Origin: Terriglobia bacterium
Lineage (GTDB): Bacteria > Acidobacteriota > Terriglobia > JAIQFV01
Assembly: GCA_020073085.1 (NCBI GenBank)
Contig: JAIQFV010000003.1
Location: 124,001 to 188,000 of the forward strand
Direction of reading: 5' to 3'
DNA: 64,000 bases
Part shown: positions 11,577-53,648 of the stretch, piece after piece
How the letters are laid out: each line of letters opens with the position of its first letter
Position numbering within the stretch: the stretch's first letter is position 1
Program-made: the position numbers and the translations under genes
The notes under the pieces: generated by a model
Seen by the model: the letters and a program-made list of their open reading frames with translations, nothing else
What the model was told of the DNA's origin: nothing
The model's database searches: none

Positions 11577-11738
11577 ATGGATGTTGATTCTGAAGGAAAG
11601 CGATTGGCAGCGCTGTACTCCAGCATGACGGACGAAGAATTGGAAGAGCTTGCCGGTGATCAAACAGCGCTCACTGATGAGGCGCGCCGGGCGTTAAATG
11701 GGGAGATGTCACACCGGGGACTCAGTTTCATCCCATGA
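11577..11738 (+). CDS. 53-aa acidic helical protein downstream of the kinase
   Basis: A short gene 13 bp after the kinase stop. It starts MDVDSEGKRLAALYSSMTDE and continues with EELAGDQTALTDEARRALNG. The pattern 'RL..LY..MtDEEL.eLA....LT..A..AL..E...RGL' matches a widespread class of short acidobacterial proteins of unknown role, often encoded next to small signalling or membrane proteins. Predicted as two to three helices, no membrane segment. The 3' end overlaps the convergent MerR gene by 11 bp. Probably co-transcribed with the kinase. Confidence 0.6.
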   Translation: MDVDSEGKRLAALYSSMTDEELEELAGDQTALTDEARRALNGEMSHRGLSFIP

Positions 11739-12189
11739 CAATCTTCGTTGGATGCCGCGGCGATTTGCGAATCAACGCTTCAAGTGGAACATCCACGCGA
11801 CCTTGACGATGAATCCCCCTCCCGCACTCCTCCATTGTTTCGCATCGGCAGCAAGCGACCATCGTTTGCAGCAATTCCTGCATGGACTTGATCTGATCCA
11901 TCCACTGAGCGAGTTCTGCGAGCTTTCGCTGTGAGAGTTTCTGCCAGCGCATAAATGCCGGGGTGGTCTTGCGGAAGCCAAAAAACAGGCGCCGAACTTC
12001 GTCCAGCGTGAAGCCAGACTGCTGTGCCCGATGGATAACGGCAAGCCTGTGGAGCGCTGTGGTGTCATAGCGCCGCTGCCCGCTGATCCGGGGGGGTGGG
12101 GGAAGTATTCGCATCTGTTCGTAATAGCGGATCGCGGACGGCCGCAGGCCCGCCTGTCGCGCGACCTCGGAAATGGTTAGTTGTGTCAT
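11728..12189 (-). CDS. MerR-family regulator with a SoxR-like cysteine cluster
   Basis: Activator/repressor of the MerR family, 153 aa. The N-terminal winged helix has LTISEVARQAGLRPSAIRYY (4-23), the wing has ISGQRRYD, and a long dimerisation helix follows (about 75-110). The sensor end carries Cys113, Cys114, Cys116 and Cys122. The Cx1Cx5C spacing of the last three equals that of the [2Fe-2S] ligands Cys122/124/130 of E. coli SoxR, but the first Cys is adjacent to the second rather than three residues before it. It is divergent from a secreted Cys-Cys-Pro-Phe protein gene, and the 148-bp spacer holds a MerR-type operator. Metal, redox or thiol sensing is inferred; the signal is unknown. Confidence 0.9.
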   Translation of the reverse strand: MTQLTISEVARQAGLRPSAIRYYEQMRILPPPPRISGQRRYDTTALHRLAVIHRAQQSGFTLDEVRRLFFGFRKTTPAFMRWQKLSQRKLAELAQWMDQIKSMQELLQTMVACCRCETMEECGRGIHRQGRVDVPLEALIRKSPRHPTKIVMG

Positions 12190-12257
12190 GCCAATATTCT
12201 AAGTCACTCCTGCGGTTGTTGCGTCGATCTGTCGACAACTTTTTACAGAAATCTTGC

Positions 12258-12288
12258 TTGCCTTCAAGTCGACTTGAAGTTGTAAGGT
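12258..12288 (+). promoter_or_regulatory. MerR-type promoter with 18-bp palindromic operator
   Basis: A -35 TTGCCT (12258-12263) and -10 TAAGGT (12283-12288) are separated by 19 bp, the overlong spacer typical of MerR-activated promoters. The spacer contains the perfect palindrome CTTCAAGTCGACTTGAAG (12262-12279). Its core CAAGT..ACTTG resembles the SoxR box. It drives the gene at 12338 and is presumably bound by the MerR protein encoded divergently. Confidence 0.8.
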
Positions 12289-12337
12289 GCTGCTCCGGAC
12301 GCGTAATACAACAAAAACAACCGAACGAGGAGGATGC

Positions 12338-12778
12338 ATGAAGATATCAATTTCAGTCGTGTTAACAATGATAATCCTGGGGTGCATGAGTTTCCCGAAC
12401 CTGGCGTTGGCAGGTCAAACAGGGGGCCGGCGATCCAATACTTCGGCACAGAGCAAAAAAGAGACCCCCTTCTTCTGCGACCGGACGGCGTTGACCCCGG
12501 AGCAGAGAAAGCGCCAGGGAGAACTCAGCACGATCATGAGGTCGGCGTTGCTGGGGGTCCAGGAGTTGCCGGATGGATATGAATTCGAATTTTCCCCGGA
12601 GCCCTCCAACTACCAGGCCCTGACGGAATTCACGCTGCTGGAGCGGGCCTGCTGTCCGTTCTTTGATATCAGCATTCGACTGGAGCGTGATGGCGGCAAG
12701 CTGTGGTGGCGCCTGACGGGCCGCGAAGGCGTAAAGTCGTTCATCCGGCCAGAGTTTTCTCCGTGGTTCAAACGATAA
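12338..12778 (+). CDS. Secreted Cys-Cys-Pro-Phe protein controlled by MerR
   Basis: A 146-aa exported protein. The signal peptide is about residues 1-26 (MIILGCMSFPNLALA then GQ). The mature part has a single Cys in PFFCDRTALTPEQR and the signature LLERACCPFFDISIRLE followed by LWWRLTGREGVKSF. Short proteins with 'LLE...CCPF..F.l.......lRLtGpeG.k.F' are found beside MerR regulators in many soil bacteria; no biochemical role is known to me. A GAGGAGG site precedes ATG 12338; the upstream in-frame start at 12287 would lie within the promoter. The vicinal Cys pair and MerR control suggest metal or thiol-reactive stress, by inference only. Confidence 0.8.
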   Translation: MKISISVVLTMIILGCMSFPNLALAGQTGGRRSNTSAQSKKETPFFCDRTALTPEQRKRQGELSTIMRSALLGVQELPDGYEFEFSPEPSNYQALTEFTLLERACCPFFDISIRLERDGGKLWWRLTGREGVKSFIRPEFSPWFKR

Positions 12779-13171: not shown

Positions 13172-13209
13172 TTGACATTCTATGTGTACTAGTATAGATA
13201 GTACACATA
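13172..13209 (+). promoter_or_regulatory. Promoter with overlapping inverted-repeat operator of the GntR-ABC operon
   Basis: A -35 TTGACA (13172-13177) and, 17 bp on, TAGATA (13195-13200) as the -10. A perfect inverted repeat with 11-bp arms, TATGTGTACTA (13181-13191) and TAGTACACATA (13199-13209), covers the core promoter with a 7-bp spacer. It resembles YtrA-type GntR operators (GTGTACTA half-sites). The right arm ends on the A of the likely GntR start codon, implying a leaderless or nearly leaderless mRNA and autorepression. Confidence 0.75.
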
Positions 13210-13631
13210 TGTTGCCGTTCCGAGTGGAATTTAAACCAGGGGTTTCCCCCTACCGGCAAATTATCTATGCGGTCGAGAAGAGCCTGGTATGCGGCCAATT
13301 GCGTCCGGGTGATCCTTTTCCCTCAGTGCGGAGTTTGAGTCAGGCTTTCAAGATAAACCCAAACACGGCGCACAAGGTGGTTGCCGAACTCATACGCCGG
13401 GAACTGCTCGAAGTCCGTTCGGGGATCGGGACCATCGTGGCAGATACTCCGCCCCCCTTGCCGCGGGAGCGTAGCGCCCTGCTGAAAGATGATTTAGAAC
13501 GGTTGGTGGTGGAAGCCAAGAGGATGTCCCTGGAACTCGAGGACTTGGTGGAGGCGGTAGAGCAGCATTGGATGCGCCTGTCAGAGAGGAAATCAAGCGA
13601 GCGGGTGGAAGCCGTCAAGCCCAGGAGGTAG
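13209..13631 (+). CDS. GntR-family regulator, YtrA subfamily
   Basis: A 140-aa one-domain regulator. The winged helix (about residues 14-80) includes SPYRQIIYAVEKSLVCGQL and GDPFPSVRSLSQAFKINPNT, the latter being the recognition region. A short helical tail (about 95-135) replaces the usual large effector domain, as in YtrA. I start it at ATG 13209; the in-frame ATG at 13182 lies inside the operator, upstream of the predicted transcription start. It is followed after 5 bp by an ABC ATPase and then its permease, the standard YtrA arrangement in which the regulator represses its own exporter operon. The inducer in characterised cases is often a cell-wall-active compound; here it is unknown. Confidence 0.9.
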   Translation: MLPFRVEFKPGVSPYRQIIYAVEKSLVCGQLRPGDPFPSVRSLSQAFKINPNTAHKVVAELIRRELLEVRSGIGTIVADTPPPLPRERSALLKDDLERLVVEAKRMSLELEDLVEAVEQHWMRLSERKSSERVEAVKPRR

Positions 13632-13636
13632 AAGTC

Positions 13637-14560
13637 ATGAATTCCCCTTTGTGGAGTGAAAATCTAACGCGCCGATTTGGACGGCTCGAAGCGGTCTGTG
13701 ACCTGAACCTGATGGTTCCGGAGGGTAGTCTCTTCGCTCTGTTAGGTCCGAACGGTGCGGGGAAAACGACCACCATCCACGTTCTCATGAATTTGCTCCG
13801 CCCCTCCTCCGGCCGAGTCATGGTGATGGGGAAGGACTCAACGCGTTTGGGGAGTTCGGAATTGGCGCAGATTGGCTATGTTTCCGAAAACCAGAAACTG
13901 CCGGGCTGGATGACATTGGAGCAGCTGCTGCAATTCTGTAAGCCTTTATATCCCACTTGGGATGGTCTTCTCGGCGAAAAGCTCGTCCGCCAGTTTGATC
14001 TGCCGCCGGGAAGAAAGATCCGGACCCTTTCACGGGGGCAGCGAATCAAGGCCGCCATGGTGACGGCCCTGGCTTATCGTCCTCGCCTGCTCGTGCTGGA
14101 CGAGCCTTTCAGCGGATTGGACGTCGCCGTGCGTGAGGAGCTGGTGCAAGGGATGCTTGAATTGGCCGGGCAGGGAGACTGGACGCTCTTCATCTCCTCT
14201 CACGATCTGGAAGACATCGAAAACCTGGTCGACTGGGTGGGCTTCATTAACGAAGGAAGATTGTTGTTCTCGGAGGAGTTGGAACGGCTTCAGGCGAGGT
14301 TCCGCGAGGTTGAAGTCACTCTTCCGGAGGCAGCCGCTGCAGCCACGAACTTGCCCCGAAGCTGGGGGCCACTTCAAGTCGCCGGAAAAGTGCTTCGCTT
14401 CATCGAGACTCAGTATCAGGAAGGGGAGAGTGAAGCCCATATCAGGAGGATATTTCCCACGGCAGAAAATCTCTTCATTTCCCCCCTTTCATTGAGATCC
14501 ATTTTCGTGACACTGGCCCGACAAAGTAAGGGGTCCAGCCGGGAGGAAAAAACGTTATGA
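13637..14560 (+). CDS. ABC transporter ATP-binding protein (exporter, YtrB-like)
   Basis: Nucleotide-binding subunit of an ABC-2 type exporter. The 307-aa product has Walker A GPNGAGKTT, the Q-loop region YVSENQKLPGWMTLEQLLQF, the signature LSRGQRIKA, a Walker B LLVLDEPFSGLD and the switch His in ISSHD. The signature is LSRGQ rather than the usual LSGGQ, as in other YtrB/EcsA-like members. A C-terminal extension of about 90 residues follows the core. AGGAGG overlapping the end of gntR gives the start at ATG 13637. It overlaps the permease gene by 4 bp (ATGA), indicating coupled translation. Confidence 0.92.
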   Translation: MNSPLWSENLTRRFGRLEAVCDLNLMVPEGSLFALLGPNGAGKTTTIHVLMNLLRPSSGRVMVMGKDSTRLGSSELAQIGYVSENQKLPGWMTLEQLLQFCKPLYPTWDGLLGEKLVRQFDLPPGRKIRTLSRGQRIKAAMVTALAYRPRLLVLDEPFSGLDVAVREELVQGMLELAGQGDWTLFISSHDLEDIENLVDWVGFINEGRLLFSEELERLQARFREVEVTLPEAAAAATNLPRSWGPLQVAGKVLRFIETQYQEGESEAHIRRIFPTAENLFISPLSLRSIFVTLARQSKGSSREEKTL

Positions 14561-16197
14561 CGCAGTTCCTCCACCTCTTTAAGAAAGATCTTCGCCGCTT
14601 CTGGCCGCTGCTTGTTGCCTTATTGGCCATTCTGAGTGTTCAAACCGCGTTTCTCTTCCAGGATCCCTTGGCTCGTAATCCTGAACAGATCGGTGGCCTG
14701 CTTAATCGGCTCCCCAGCCAGGTGTTGAATCCATACCTGCTCAACCTCATTCTTCTGGTGATCGTGGCTCTCCTGATTCATGAAGAACCCCTGGTGGGGA
14801 CCTCAGCCTTTTGGTTGACTCGTCCCATTTCGCGAGGATCACTTCTCGCCTCAAAGGGCGTTTTCATACTTCTCTTCCTTGTTGTCGCCCCGGTGGCTGC
14901 CGAGTTTGTTGTGCTTTTCCATTACGGGCTCGAGTCCCAGCGAATCGGCGCCTGCCTGTTCCAAATTCTCATCAATGAGCTGGCGTTCCTCTTCATGGGC
15001 GCCTGCATAGCGGTGCTGACTCCGAGTCTGCCAATCTTCGCCGTTGCGGGCGTCATTGGCTCCATCCTCTGGGCGCTCTCATTCCAGCTCTTTACTTTCG
15101 TGCAGCGCCCCTCCAGCGGGATGGAGATTTTCCTGTCAAGAGAGATCCTGCGAATGATCCTGACGCTGCTGCTTGGGGCTTTTGTCGTGTGTCACCAGTA
15201 TCTAAGCCGCCGCACGGGCCGCTCGGTGGTGATCTTGGCCTTAAGTTTAATTTTGATTCACCCAATCTACCATCTGACGAGCTGGGATCTTGTAGAATCC
15301 TTCCAGTCTTTGACCCGCCCTGAAAACTCTGAAAGCCGCCGCATCGGGCTTGCCTTGCGAGACAAAGCCAGCAACTCCGGCGGCAACGATTGGTGGGTTT
15401 CAGATAGCGACAATTCCCCTGGGCAACAAGCCATATTCGGAGTACTGGAGCTGTCAAATGTCCAACCCTCCTCGATCGTGGTACTCACGCGATTGAAAGG
15501 AAAGCTCGCATTTGACGACGGATCTCAGATTCCTTATGCGAGGGACCGCGAAGAATATTACGGCAATGTGCAAGAGGCTGTCCTGCAGGGACTCAAGATA
15601 CCGGGTCAAACTGCGGCCACTCAACTCATAGAGCTTCTGAAGGTGGAGAAGGGGCTCTTTACTGAAAAGGGAAAGGAGTCGGGAAATTATTCTGGGGAGG
15701 CGCATTTCAGACTTTACCGATATGAGGCGAAGGGAAGCCTACCTTTGAAGGAAGGGGCGCATTTTCAAAGAGGCTCGTACCTTGCGACCGTTTATCGCGT
15801 CGCGCTCGAACCTGGCCAGCTTTCAATCCTCCTTCGCGGCCGGTCAATTGGGTCCTCCGACGAAGGCCCGGTGTATGTTATTAATCGCAACCGACGCCAG
15901 GTCTTGGAATCCGCGAAGCAATTCACTGGTGGCGGGACCGGGCGTCAGCTTCTTCTTGAGGGTGGACCAGCCCTTCAATACTGGGAAACTCAGCTGATTT
16001 ATGATCTGAAGGGCCGGAATGACCTCCGCCGATTTCCCGTCGATGCGGAATGGCTTTCAGGGGCTGAAGTGGTAATTCCGGATCGAATAGAGACAGCCCG
16101 ATTCACACGTACCTTTCAAGTCAAGGATTTCCAGATGGCGGACTATGTCCTCGAAGCTTGGCTCCATCGCCATGGGTTTCGTGGAATTCAAAAGTAA
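14557..16197 (+). CDS. ABC-2 type membrane permease with large periplasmic domain
   Basis: Membrane partner of the preceding ATPase. The 546-aa protein starts MTQFLHLFKKDLRRFWPLLV. It has six hydrophobic segments in the first 240 residues, including VLNPYLLNLILLVIVALLIH with the following conserved HEEPLVGTSAFWLTRPISRG. A non-membrane C-terminal part of about 300 residues follows, predicted to be outside the cytoplasm and beta-rich. The 'SAFWLTRPISRGSLLASK' string is typical of acidobacterial ABC-2 permeases paired with YtrA regulators. Export of an antimicrobial or lipid is plausible; the C-terminal domain is not one I recognise. Confidence 0.85.
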   Translation: MTQFLHLFKKDLRRFWPLLVALLAILSVQTAFLFQDPLARNPEQIGGLLNRLPSQVLNPYLLNLILLVIVALLIHEEPLVGTSAFWLTRPISRGSLLASKGVFILLFLVVAPVAAEFVVLFHYGLESQRIGACLFQILINELAFLFMGACIAVLTPSLPIFAVAGVIGSILWALSFQLFTFVQRPSSGMEIFLSREILRMILTLLLGAFVVCHQYLSRRTGRSVVILALSLILIHPIYHLTSWDLVESFQSLTRPENSESRRIGLALRDKASNSGGNDWWVSDSDNSPGQQAIFGVLELSNVQPSSIVVLTRLKGKLAFDDGSQIPYARDREEYYGNVQEAVLQGLKIPGQTAATQLIELLKVEKGLFTEKGKESGNYSGEAHFRLYRYEAKGSLPLKEGAHFQRGSYLATVYRVALEPGQLSILLRGRSIGSSDEGPVYVINRNRRQVLESAKQFTGGGTGRQLLLEGGPALQYWETQLIYDLKGRNDLRRFPVDAEWLSGAEVVIPDRIETARFTRTFQVKDFQMADYVLEAWLHRHGFRGIQK

Positions 16198-52449: not shown

Positions 52450-52806
52450 ATGAAGAAGCCACCTGTCAACAGCCCATTCAATGACATTATCCGGTACGCC
52501 GACATGCTGGCCGCCATGGGAACCGAGTCCCGACTCCATATTGTAAGGCTGCTACTGGCTGCACATCCGGACGGCATGGTGGTCGGTGAGATTCAAGAGG
52601 AATTGGGGATTTCACCCTCTAACCTGTCACATCATCTGGAAAAACTCAAACACGAGGACCTCGTCCAGGTAACCCGGGAAGGCACATTCCTGCGTTACCG
52701 GGCGAATACCGAAGCCCTGAAAGAACTCCTGACCTTTCTGTATGCTGAATGCTGCACGCGCTCAAAGGCCATCGACCCCGATCAAATCGTTCAACTTTCC
52801 ACCTAG
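52450..52806 (+). CDS. arsR: ArsR-family repressor
   Basis: A 118-aa winged-helix repressor. [20 protein letters not shown] and [20 protein letters not shown] (recognition helix) are diagnostic. The C-terminal helix carries the vicinal pair in [11 protein letters not shown], which in arsM-linked ArsR proteins is thought to be the As(III) site, rather than the N-terminal CxC of classical ArsR. No ribosome site before the ATG, consistent with the leaderless promoter. The downstream gene is an arsenite methyltransferase, so the signal is very probably arsenite. Confidence 0.9.
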
Positions 52807-52814
52807 GAGGAACA

Positions 52815-53648
52815 ATGGAGAACCCGAATATCAAGGAAGTGGTAAAACAGAAGTACGGTCAGGCTGCTTTGAGGGTAGTCGGAGGCGCCAAGACCTCCTG
52901 TTGCAGCCCGGTCTCGACCTCCGTCTCGGTGTGCGATGACCCCATCACAAGCAGACTTTACGATCTGGAGCAGACGAGCGGGCTGCCTGACACGGCAGTG
53001 CTGGCCTCCCTGGGCTGTGGCAATCCGACTGCCCTCGCCGAGCTGAATCCTGGTGAGACCGTCCTCGATCTGGGTTCAGGCGGGGGCATTGATGTCCTCC
53101 TGTCCGCCAAACGCGTCGGTCCCGCCGGGAAGGCGTACGGTCTGGACATGACCGATGAAATGCTGGCGCTGGCAAACGAAAACAAGCGGAAAGCCGGAAT
53201 CGATAATGTTGAGTTCCTCAAGGGTGAAATCGAGCGCATCCCACTGCCGGATAATTCCGTGGATGTCATCATCTCAAATTGCGTGATCAATCTCTCGGCC
53301 GATAAGGACCGGGTGCTCGCGGAAGCATTTCGGGTGCTGAAGCCGGGCGGAAGGTTTGCCGTCTCCGACGTGGTGACTCGAGGCGAAATCCCTTCCGACA
53401 TCCGGAAGAGCGTGTTGCTCTGGGTGGGCTGTGTGGCGGGAGCGCTGGACGAGAACGAGTATCGAGGAAAATTGAGAAAGGCGGGTTTTGAAGACATCGA
53501 CCTGGAACCTACGCGCATCTATCGGGTGGCCGATGCCCTGAACTTTTTGACTGATCAGGGGATCGACGTGGCGGTCATCGGCCCGCAAGTGGACGAGAAG
53601 TTCATGAGCGCCTTCATTCGTGCCCGTAAGCCGGTAGACAGCAGGTGA
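52815..53648 (+). CDS. arsM: Arsenite S-adenosylmethionine methyltransferase
   Basis: Cytosolic enzyme that methylates As(III) to volatile or less toxic forms. The 277-aa product has the SAM motif [20 protein letters not shown]. The three Cys needed for As binding are visible: Cys68 in LASLGCGNP, Cys156 in [12 protein letters not shown] and Cys206 in [10 protein letters not shown], which fit CmArsM Cys72/174/224. An extra Cys29-Cys30 pair lies in [14 protein letters not shown] precedes ATG 52815, 8 bp after arsR. The following GTG overlaps its stop. Confidence 0.95.

Follow-up and report, generated by a model that had tools for sequence, protein, structure and literature searches.

A divergently transcribed pair of a three-cysteine MerR regulator and a CCPF protein recurs across bacterial phyla and is probably a defence against thiol-attacking metals or metalloids

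The analysed stretch of 64,000 nucleotides (the window) lies on contig C3 of the 5.79-Mb genome of a Terriglobia bacterium. It carries the gene of a MerR-family regulator and, divergent from it, the gene of a protein with a Cys-Cys-Pro-Phe motif (CCPF), with a palindromic operator in between (Table 1). Since the pair and its control site recur across several phyla, frequently with arsenic, mercury or thiol-repair genes as neighbours, they probably represent a hitherto undescribed defence against metals or metalloids that attack thiols. The DNA part of this proposal, namely, the pair with its operator, is well supported, and we are highly confident that this MerR regulates CCPF through the predicted operator. 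The further reading, in which the regulator is a metal(loid)- or thiol-stress switch driving CCPF as a binding or thiol protein, has about an even chance of being right.

Table 1. Features of the MerR/CCPF locus, in window coordinates
Feature	Position	Strand	Description and evidence
MerR-family regulator gene	11728-12189	-	153 aa; read from the sequence and the open reading frame list
Sensor loop C113 C114 x C116 x5 C122	11824-11853	-	Alignments A4 and A7
MerR-type promoter	12258-12288	+	-35 TTGCCT 12258-12263, 19-bp spacer, -10 TAAGGT 12283-12288
Operator, perfect 18-bp palindrome CTTCAAGTCGACTTGAAG	12262-12279	none	Sequence; genome and window scans
Likely ribosome-binding site GAGGAGG	12327-12333	+	Ahead of ATG 12338; sequence
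CCPF protein gene	12338-12778	+	146 aa, signal-peptide-like N-terminus; Cys47 codon 12476-12478, Cys105-Cys106 codons 12650-12655

What the original prediction stated of the regulator, the palindrome, the promoter spacing and the exported-looking CCPF gene is correct on direct reading of the sequence. The closest orthologous locus, L031, has proteins 84-87% identical to those of the window. A second, imperfect inverted repeat (GTTGTTGCGTCGATCTGTCGACAAC) is located at 12215-12239; its right-end stretch (GACAACTTTTTACAGAAATC) is kept in L031 and may belong to the promoter of the regulator itself. Just downstream of the CCPF gene, the window has a cassette of a GntR regulator, an ABC ATPase and a permease (13182-16197), which was not seen in L031 between CCPF and the gene for an aromatic amino acid lyase.

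A CCPF-only protein search over 84,980 species genomes yielded 31 loci, which belong to Acidobacteriota, Chloroflexota, Bacteroidota, Eisenbacteria, Rokubacteria and one proteobacterium. A MerR gene is found within 1.2 kb of CCPF at 21 of the 31 loci, and the ±6 kb around them hold only one further MerR. Seventeen of these regulators (two incomplete) fall into the class of the window regulator, and the remaining four (L040, L044, L045 and L059) represent other MerR types, two of them the divalent-metal type with the Cys79/82 ligand. The same divergent pair is present on all three Bacillales plasmids (Paenibacillus, Peribacillus and Cytobacillus). In the reverse search, three of 199 genomes of the phylum contained a relative of the MerR at E<1e-18, each with CCPF in a divergent operon; in one of them, the CCPF part is joined to a membrane domain. 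As an internal contrast, no MerR adjoins the more distant CCxF relatives (L084-L092), and the scanned viral contigs contained neither a CCPF relative nor the operator. The predicted regulator-target pair under a MerR-type operator is thus supported by recurrence across phyla and by conservation of the operator.

The operator had been described as a perfect 18-bp palindrome in a 19-bp spacer with a SoxR-box-like core. All of this is seen in the sequence, and the core, TCAAGT..ACTTGA, is identical to that of the E. coli soxS box (CCTCAAGTTAACTTGAGG; NC_000913), with agreement at 14 of the 18 positions. Allowing three mismatches, the window contains one operator site against 0.04 expected, and the degenerate operator occurs without mismatch exactly once in the 5.79-Mb genome; one copy with a single mismatch lies elsewhere (C9:146563), with no clear promoter or target there. 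We defined a strict operator by TTG at -35 with at least 5/6 consensus positions, a 19-bp spacer, at least 3/6 positions at -10 and a palindrome of at least 6/9. Among the 23 class-linked loci, 13 have such an operator ahead of the CCPF operon, compared with 0.02 expected from first-order shuffles, and one of 22 other CCPF loci has it; weaker copies are visible by eye at most of the remaining class-linked loci. The promoter architecture of the window is repeated in relatives, with the consensus TTGaCTTmAAGTnnACTTkAAGttnTA across loci. The operator of G179, whose regulator is 52% identical to that of the window, matches the E. coli soxS box at 16 of 18 positions (CTTCAAGTTAACTTGAAG). In L033, L034 and L037, the MerR gene lies downstream of CCPF and is not divergent, and the operator still stands ahead of CCPF, an arrangement that favours CCPF as the target. 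At L043, a good operator (TTGACTTAAAGTTGGGTTTAAGATTTATGCT, upstream of 1392) precedes a CCPF gene with no MerR gene in the neighbourhood examined; this CCPF is a possible distant regulon member.

The window CCPF has a hydrophobic N-terminus followed by ALA-GQT, and the Cys-Cys-Pro-Phe motif occupies positions 105-108. C47, C105 and C106 are invariant in 27 homologues (alignment A5), as are G80, E102, P107, F108, G128 and K133. The original prediction of an exported target with a vicinal Cys pair therefore holds for the pair, C105-C106; it had overlooked the third invariant cysteine, C47, and export turns out to apply to part of the family only. Most Acidobacteriota CCPF proteins have the signal-peptide-like N-terminus, and those of Chloroflexota, Bacillales and others lack it; the domain thus seems, as judged from its N-termini, to work in either compartment. 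The window CCPF reached no family in Pfam, NCBIfam or PHROG, and none of its homologues rose above noise in Pfam. The AF2 model (core pLDDT 96-98) has an alpha-beta-beta-alpha-beta-beta-alpha fold, for which Foldseek returned no match at E<=0.001. Its best likeness among solved structures, the ArgR C-terminal domain (VIA Z 7.7), is not convincing, and ArgR/I-DmoI-like alpha/beta topologies (Z 6-8) were treated as chance. A match to a galectin chain (2.6e-4) was also rejected: it covers 48 residues, other galectin chains fail to repeat it, and it falls to 4.5e-3 with a profile. At L021 (4688-5302, minus strand; genome G059), a CCPF-like domain under the same operator forms a fusion with a hydrophobic C-terminal domain that contains RCCVVPML.

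MerR-family regulators activate long-spacer promoters by untwisting the DNA. By analogy, a dimer bound to the palindrome within the over-long spacer would keep the divergent promoter inactive. C114, C116 and C122 would capture a thiophilic agent, which is most likely a metal or metalloid, for example As(III), Sb(III) or Hg(II), or else a closely related thiol-reactive stress; Arg81-Trp82 of the other protomer is predicted to lie beside the capture site. The regulator would then untwist the DNA and allow RNA polymerase to transcribe the CCPF gene. The thiols of CCPF (C47, C105 and C106) would probably bind or buffer the same agent, in the exported protein here and in the cytoplasm in other phyla. 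For a metal(loid) as the ligand itself, we see the chances as evenly divided; the apparent SoxR kinship of the regulator counts against it and leaves room for redox sensing.

The context of a redox or metal-stress module, as originally proposed, is supported by neighbour genes in relatives, which point to stress on thiols or to thiophilic metal(loid)s, with no preference between the two. YnfA is found at seven of 52 loci, mostly directly adjoining CCPF or MerR. Arsenic and mercury genes accompany the pair at L058, where ArsM, behind an ArsR gene, overlaps CCPF by a few bases, at L027 and L028, which are ars islands, at L026 (merA, merR1 and an ACR3-like gene) and at L049 (ArsM 1.7 kb away); these arsenic and mercury associations occur at a minority of the loci, in phyla other than that of the window, and in part on resistance plasmids, where any gene would have them nearby. 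Neither the window nor its closest orthologue has a resistance gene directly beside the pair. The gene ahead of CCPF on two Bacillales plasmids encodes a small membrane protein that contains CALCCALP. As a candidate MerT/MerF relative it was rejected, since it matched only MerTP_fusion, at E 0.13-0.14, far below the cut-off, a mere resemblance; the likeness of this protein and of the fused Cys-pair domain of G059 to mercuric transporters is suggestive only. Exported-looking proteins of the DinB superfamily are encoded beside or near CCPF in the Acidobacteriota loci L035 (501-1124), L039 (1398-1940) and L045 (3072-3719). Elsewhere in the window, 40 kb from the pair, an ArsR-family gene (52450-52806, plus strand), whose product has a Cys pair close to the C-terminus, directly precedes an ArsM gene (52815-53648, plus strand; arsenite methyltransferase, 366.8 bits against a cut-off of 263). 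The genome thus has an arsenic methylation unit, and one ArsM exceeds the cut-off in its 5.79 Mb.

Thiol-repair genes near CCPF speak for a different reading, in which the regulator is a non-metal thiol-redox or electrophile sensor of the NmlR/AdhR kind. Under disulfide, aldehyde or quinone stress, C114, C116 and C122 would form disulfides or become alkylated, with CCPF repairing thiols together with TlpA, CcdA or thioredoxin. Indeed, TlpA, CcdA, AhpC/TSA-like or other thioredoxin-fold genes adjoin CCPF at L018, L035 and L036, and such genes may accompany exported CCPF. Moreover, on a Gemmatirosa plasmid (L030, about 5000), a class member with CGCFRLDDC has a thioredoxin (WCGPC) as its divergent target. 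NmlR and AdhR are classed as redox-responsive MerR regulators (PMC9909328). However, the ars, mer and YnfA neighbours are left unexplained, and the loop combines the spacing of the CueR metal site (Cys-x7-Cys) with a third Cys. We consider this explanation rather unlikely.

The regulator shows the hallmarks of the MerR superfamily: a winged HTH, a dimerisation helix and an operator in a long, 19-bp spacer. It matches Pfam MerR_1 (1.1e-16) and MerR-DNA-bind (1.1e-11) over the cut-off, and a Pfam search revealed no drug-binding domain. Its AF2 model (mean pLDDT 86) aligns equally to SoxR and CadR (VIA-align Z 12.9). The curated models of characterized families are all missed: the window regulator scores 63.4 bits with SoxR (TIGR01950, cut-off 116.9), 75.3 with CueR (TIGR02044, 147.4), 66.3 with mercury-type MerR (150.85), 46.4 with ZntR (167.95) and 44.5 with CadR-PbrR (151.45). 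The tested relatives likewise miss the SoxR (65.9-80.1 bits), CueR, MerR, ZntR and CadR cut-offs. When the SoxR model was run over 247 genomes of the phylum, two true Acidobacteriota SoxR proteins came on top (184-189 bits), directly followed, at 72-80 bits, by the regulators of G059, G179 and G215, all three adjoining CCPF genes. Furthermore, in a tree built without the sensor columns, the class falls on the same side of a branch as SoxR (support 85/92), as it did in the first tree (96 SH-aLRT). This placement is not conclusive. Despite the missed cut-offs, the ranking by the SoxR model and the tree suggest a MerR class on the SoxR side with three, not four, loop cysteines. On a Streptomyces plasmid (L105, 3995-4390), a relative of the regulator, divergent from an MFS transporter, has the complete SoxR motif (CLACGCMNFDSC); this protein may be a transitional form between SoxR and the class with three cysteines.

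The cysteines of the window regulator are at 113, 114, 116 and 122 only. C114, C116 and C122 are invariant in 14/14 class members of alignment A7, as is Arg81-Trp82, with Gln-Trp in one Bacillales member. In the alignment, C114 and C122 correspond to C112 and C120 of CueR and to C122 and C130 of SoxR, and C116 to C124 of SoxR. The SoxR-like Cx1Cx5C spacing noted originally for the last three cysteines thus holds family-wide, and homologues keep three of the four cysteines rather than two. The suggestion that the first SoxR ligand had moved to C113 is not supported: that residue is confined to the window and the 87% identical L031 regulator, and is Asn, Arg, His, Lys or similar elsewhere. Nor is C113-C114 a ZntR-like vicinal pair, since C114-C115 of ZntR aligns with C114 and the next residue. 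MerR-type metal sensors use two loop Cys together with residues of the partner chain (PMC9909328). The CueR-type loop pair, C114-x7-C122, is invariant in the class. At the column of CueR Ser77, the window regulator has Phe79, the relatives vary, and the dimer-partner Cys (MerR C82, ZntR C79, CadR-PbrR C77) is missing throughout. Lacking both this Cys and CueR S77, the class does not comprise standard Hg, Zn or Cu sensors.

These residues also bear on whether the regulator could be a [2Fe-2S] sensor of the genuine SoxR type, its fourth ligand being C113 or a residue other than Cys. Its last three Cys, Trp82, operator core, position in both trees and rank directly below true SoxR all agree with such a sensor. 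However, the SoxR cluster has four Cys ligands, CX2CXCX5C (PMC8063818), and the counterpart of SoxR C119 is absent: position 111 is Val, and none of the aligned CCPF-linked class members has a Cys three residues before C114. As the class keeps three Cys, a four-Cys site is unlikely; the score far under the SoxR cut-off also weighs against it, and we judge a [2Fe-2S] sensor distinctly improbable. Finally, a fortuitous gene order, or sensing of an organic compound by a regulator whose Cys are structural, is highly improbable given the recurrence of the pair in several phyla, the conserved operator, the invariant Cys in both proteins and the missing drug-binding domain.

Tentatively, the metal(loid) reading can be put in evolutionary terms. 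A clade on the SoxR side may have dropped the first cluster ligand, so that an Fe-S site became a three-thiolate metal(loid) site. It would have kept a SoxR-like operator and would drive the three-Cys CCPF family, whose members would serve as metal(loid) binders or buffers, periplasmic or cytoplasmic depending on the bacterium. If true, this would be a widespread regulator class linking SoxR with metal-sensing MerR proteins, and it would show how a change in a single ligand can turn an Fe-S redox sensor into a metal sensor or back. A three-Cys protein family absent from the searched family libraries would also gain its first assigned function. The operator and two genes form a small system that is easy to test in laboratory strains.

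MerR stress regulators are well known, whereas the searched literature and family libraries appear to contain no description of this class or of its CCPF partner. Literature searches returned nothing on a MerR/CCPF pair, nor on YnfA with MerR and mercury, and the accessible part of a paper on a Bacillus ars/mer transposon describes ars genes with no mention there of the pair (PMC6920998). What CCPF shares with solved or known families is a common small alpha/beta arrangement. E. coli SoxR resembles the regulator in the CxCx5C of the last three ligands, Trp91 (W82 here), the operator core, the divergent target and the side of the tree, and differs in C119, in the target, which in SoxR is an AraC regulator, and in the TIGR01950 score. 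CueR, MerR, ZntR and CadR share the fold, the C114-x7-C122 spacing and the palindrome in a 19-bp promoter spacer; the class differs from them by the extra loop Cys116, by the lack of S77 (CueR) or C79/C82 (ZntR/MerR) and by missing all cut-offs. NmlR and AdhR are likewise MerR regulators of thiol-type stress, from which the class is distinguished by its three-Cys C-terminal loop; its operator is presumably similar to AdhR sites.
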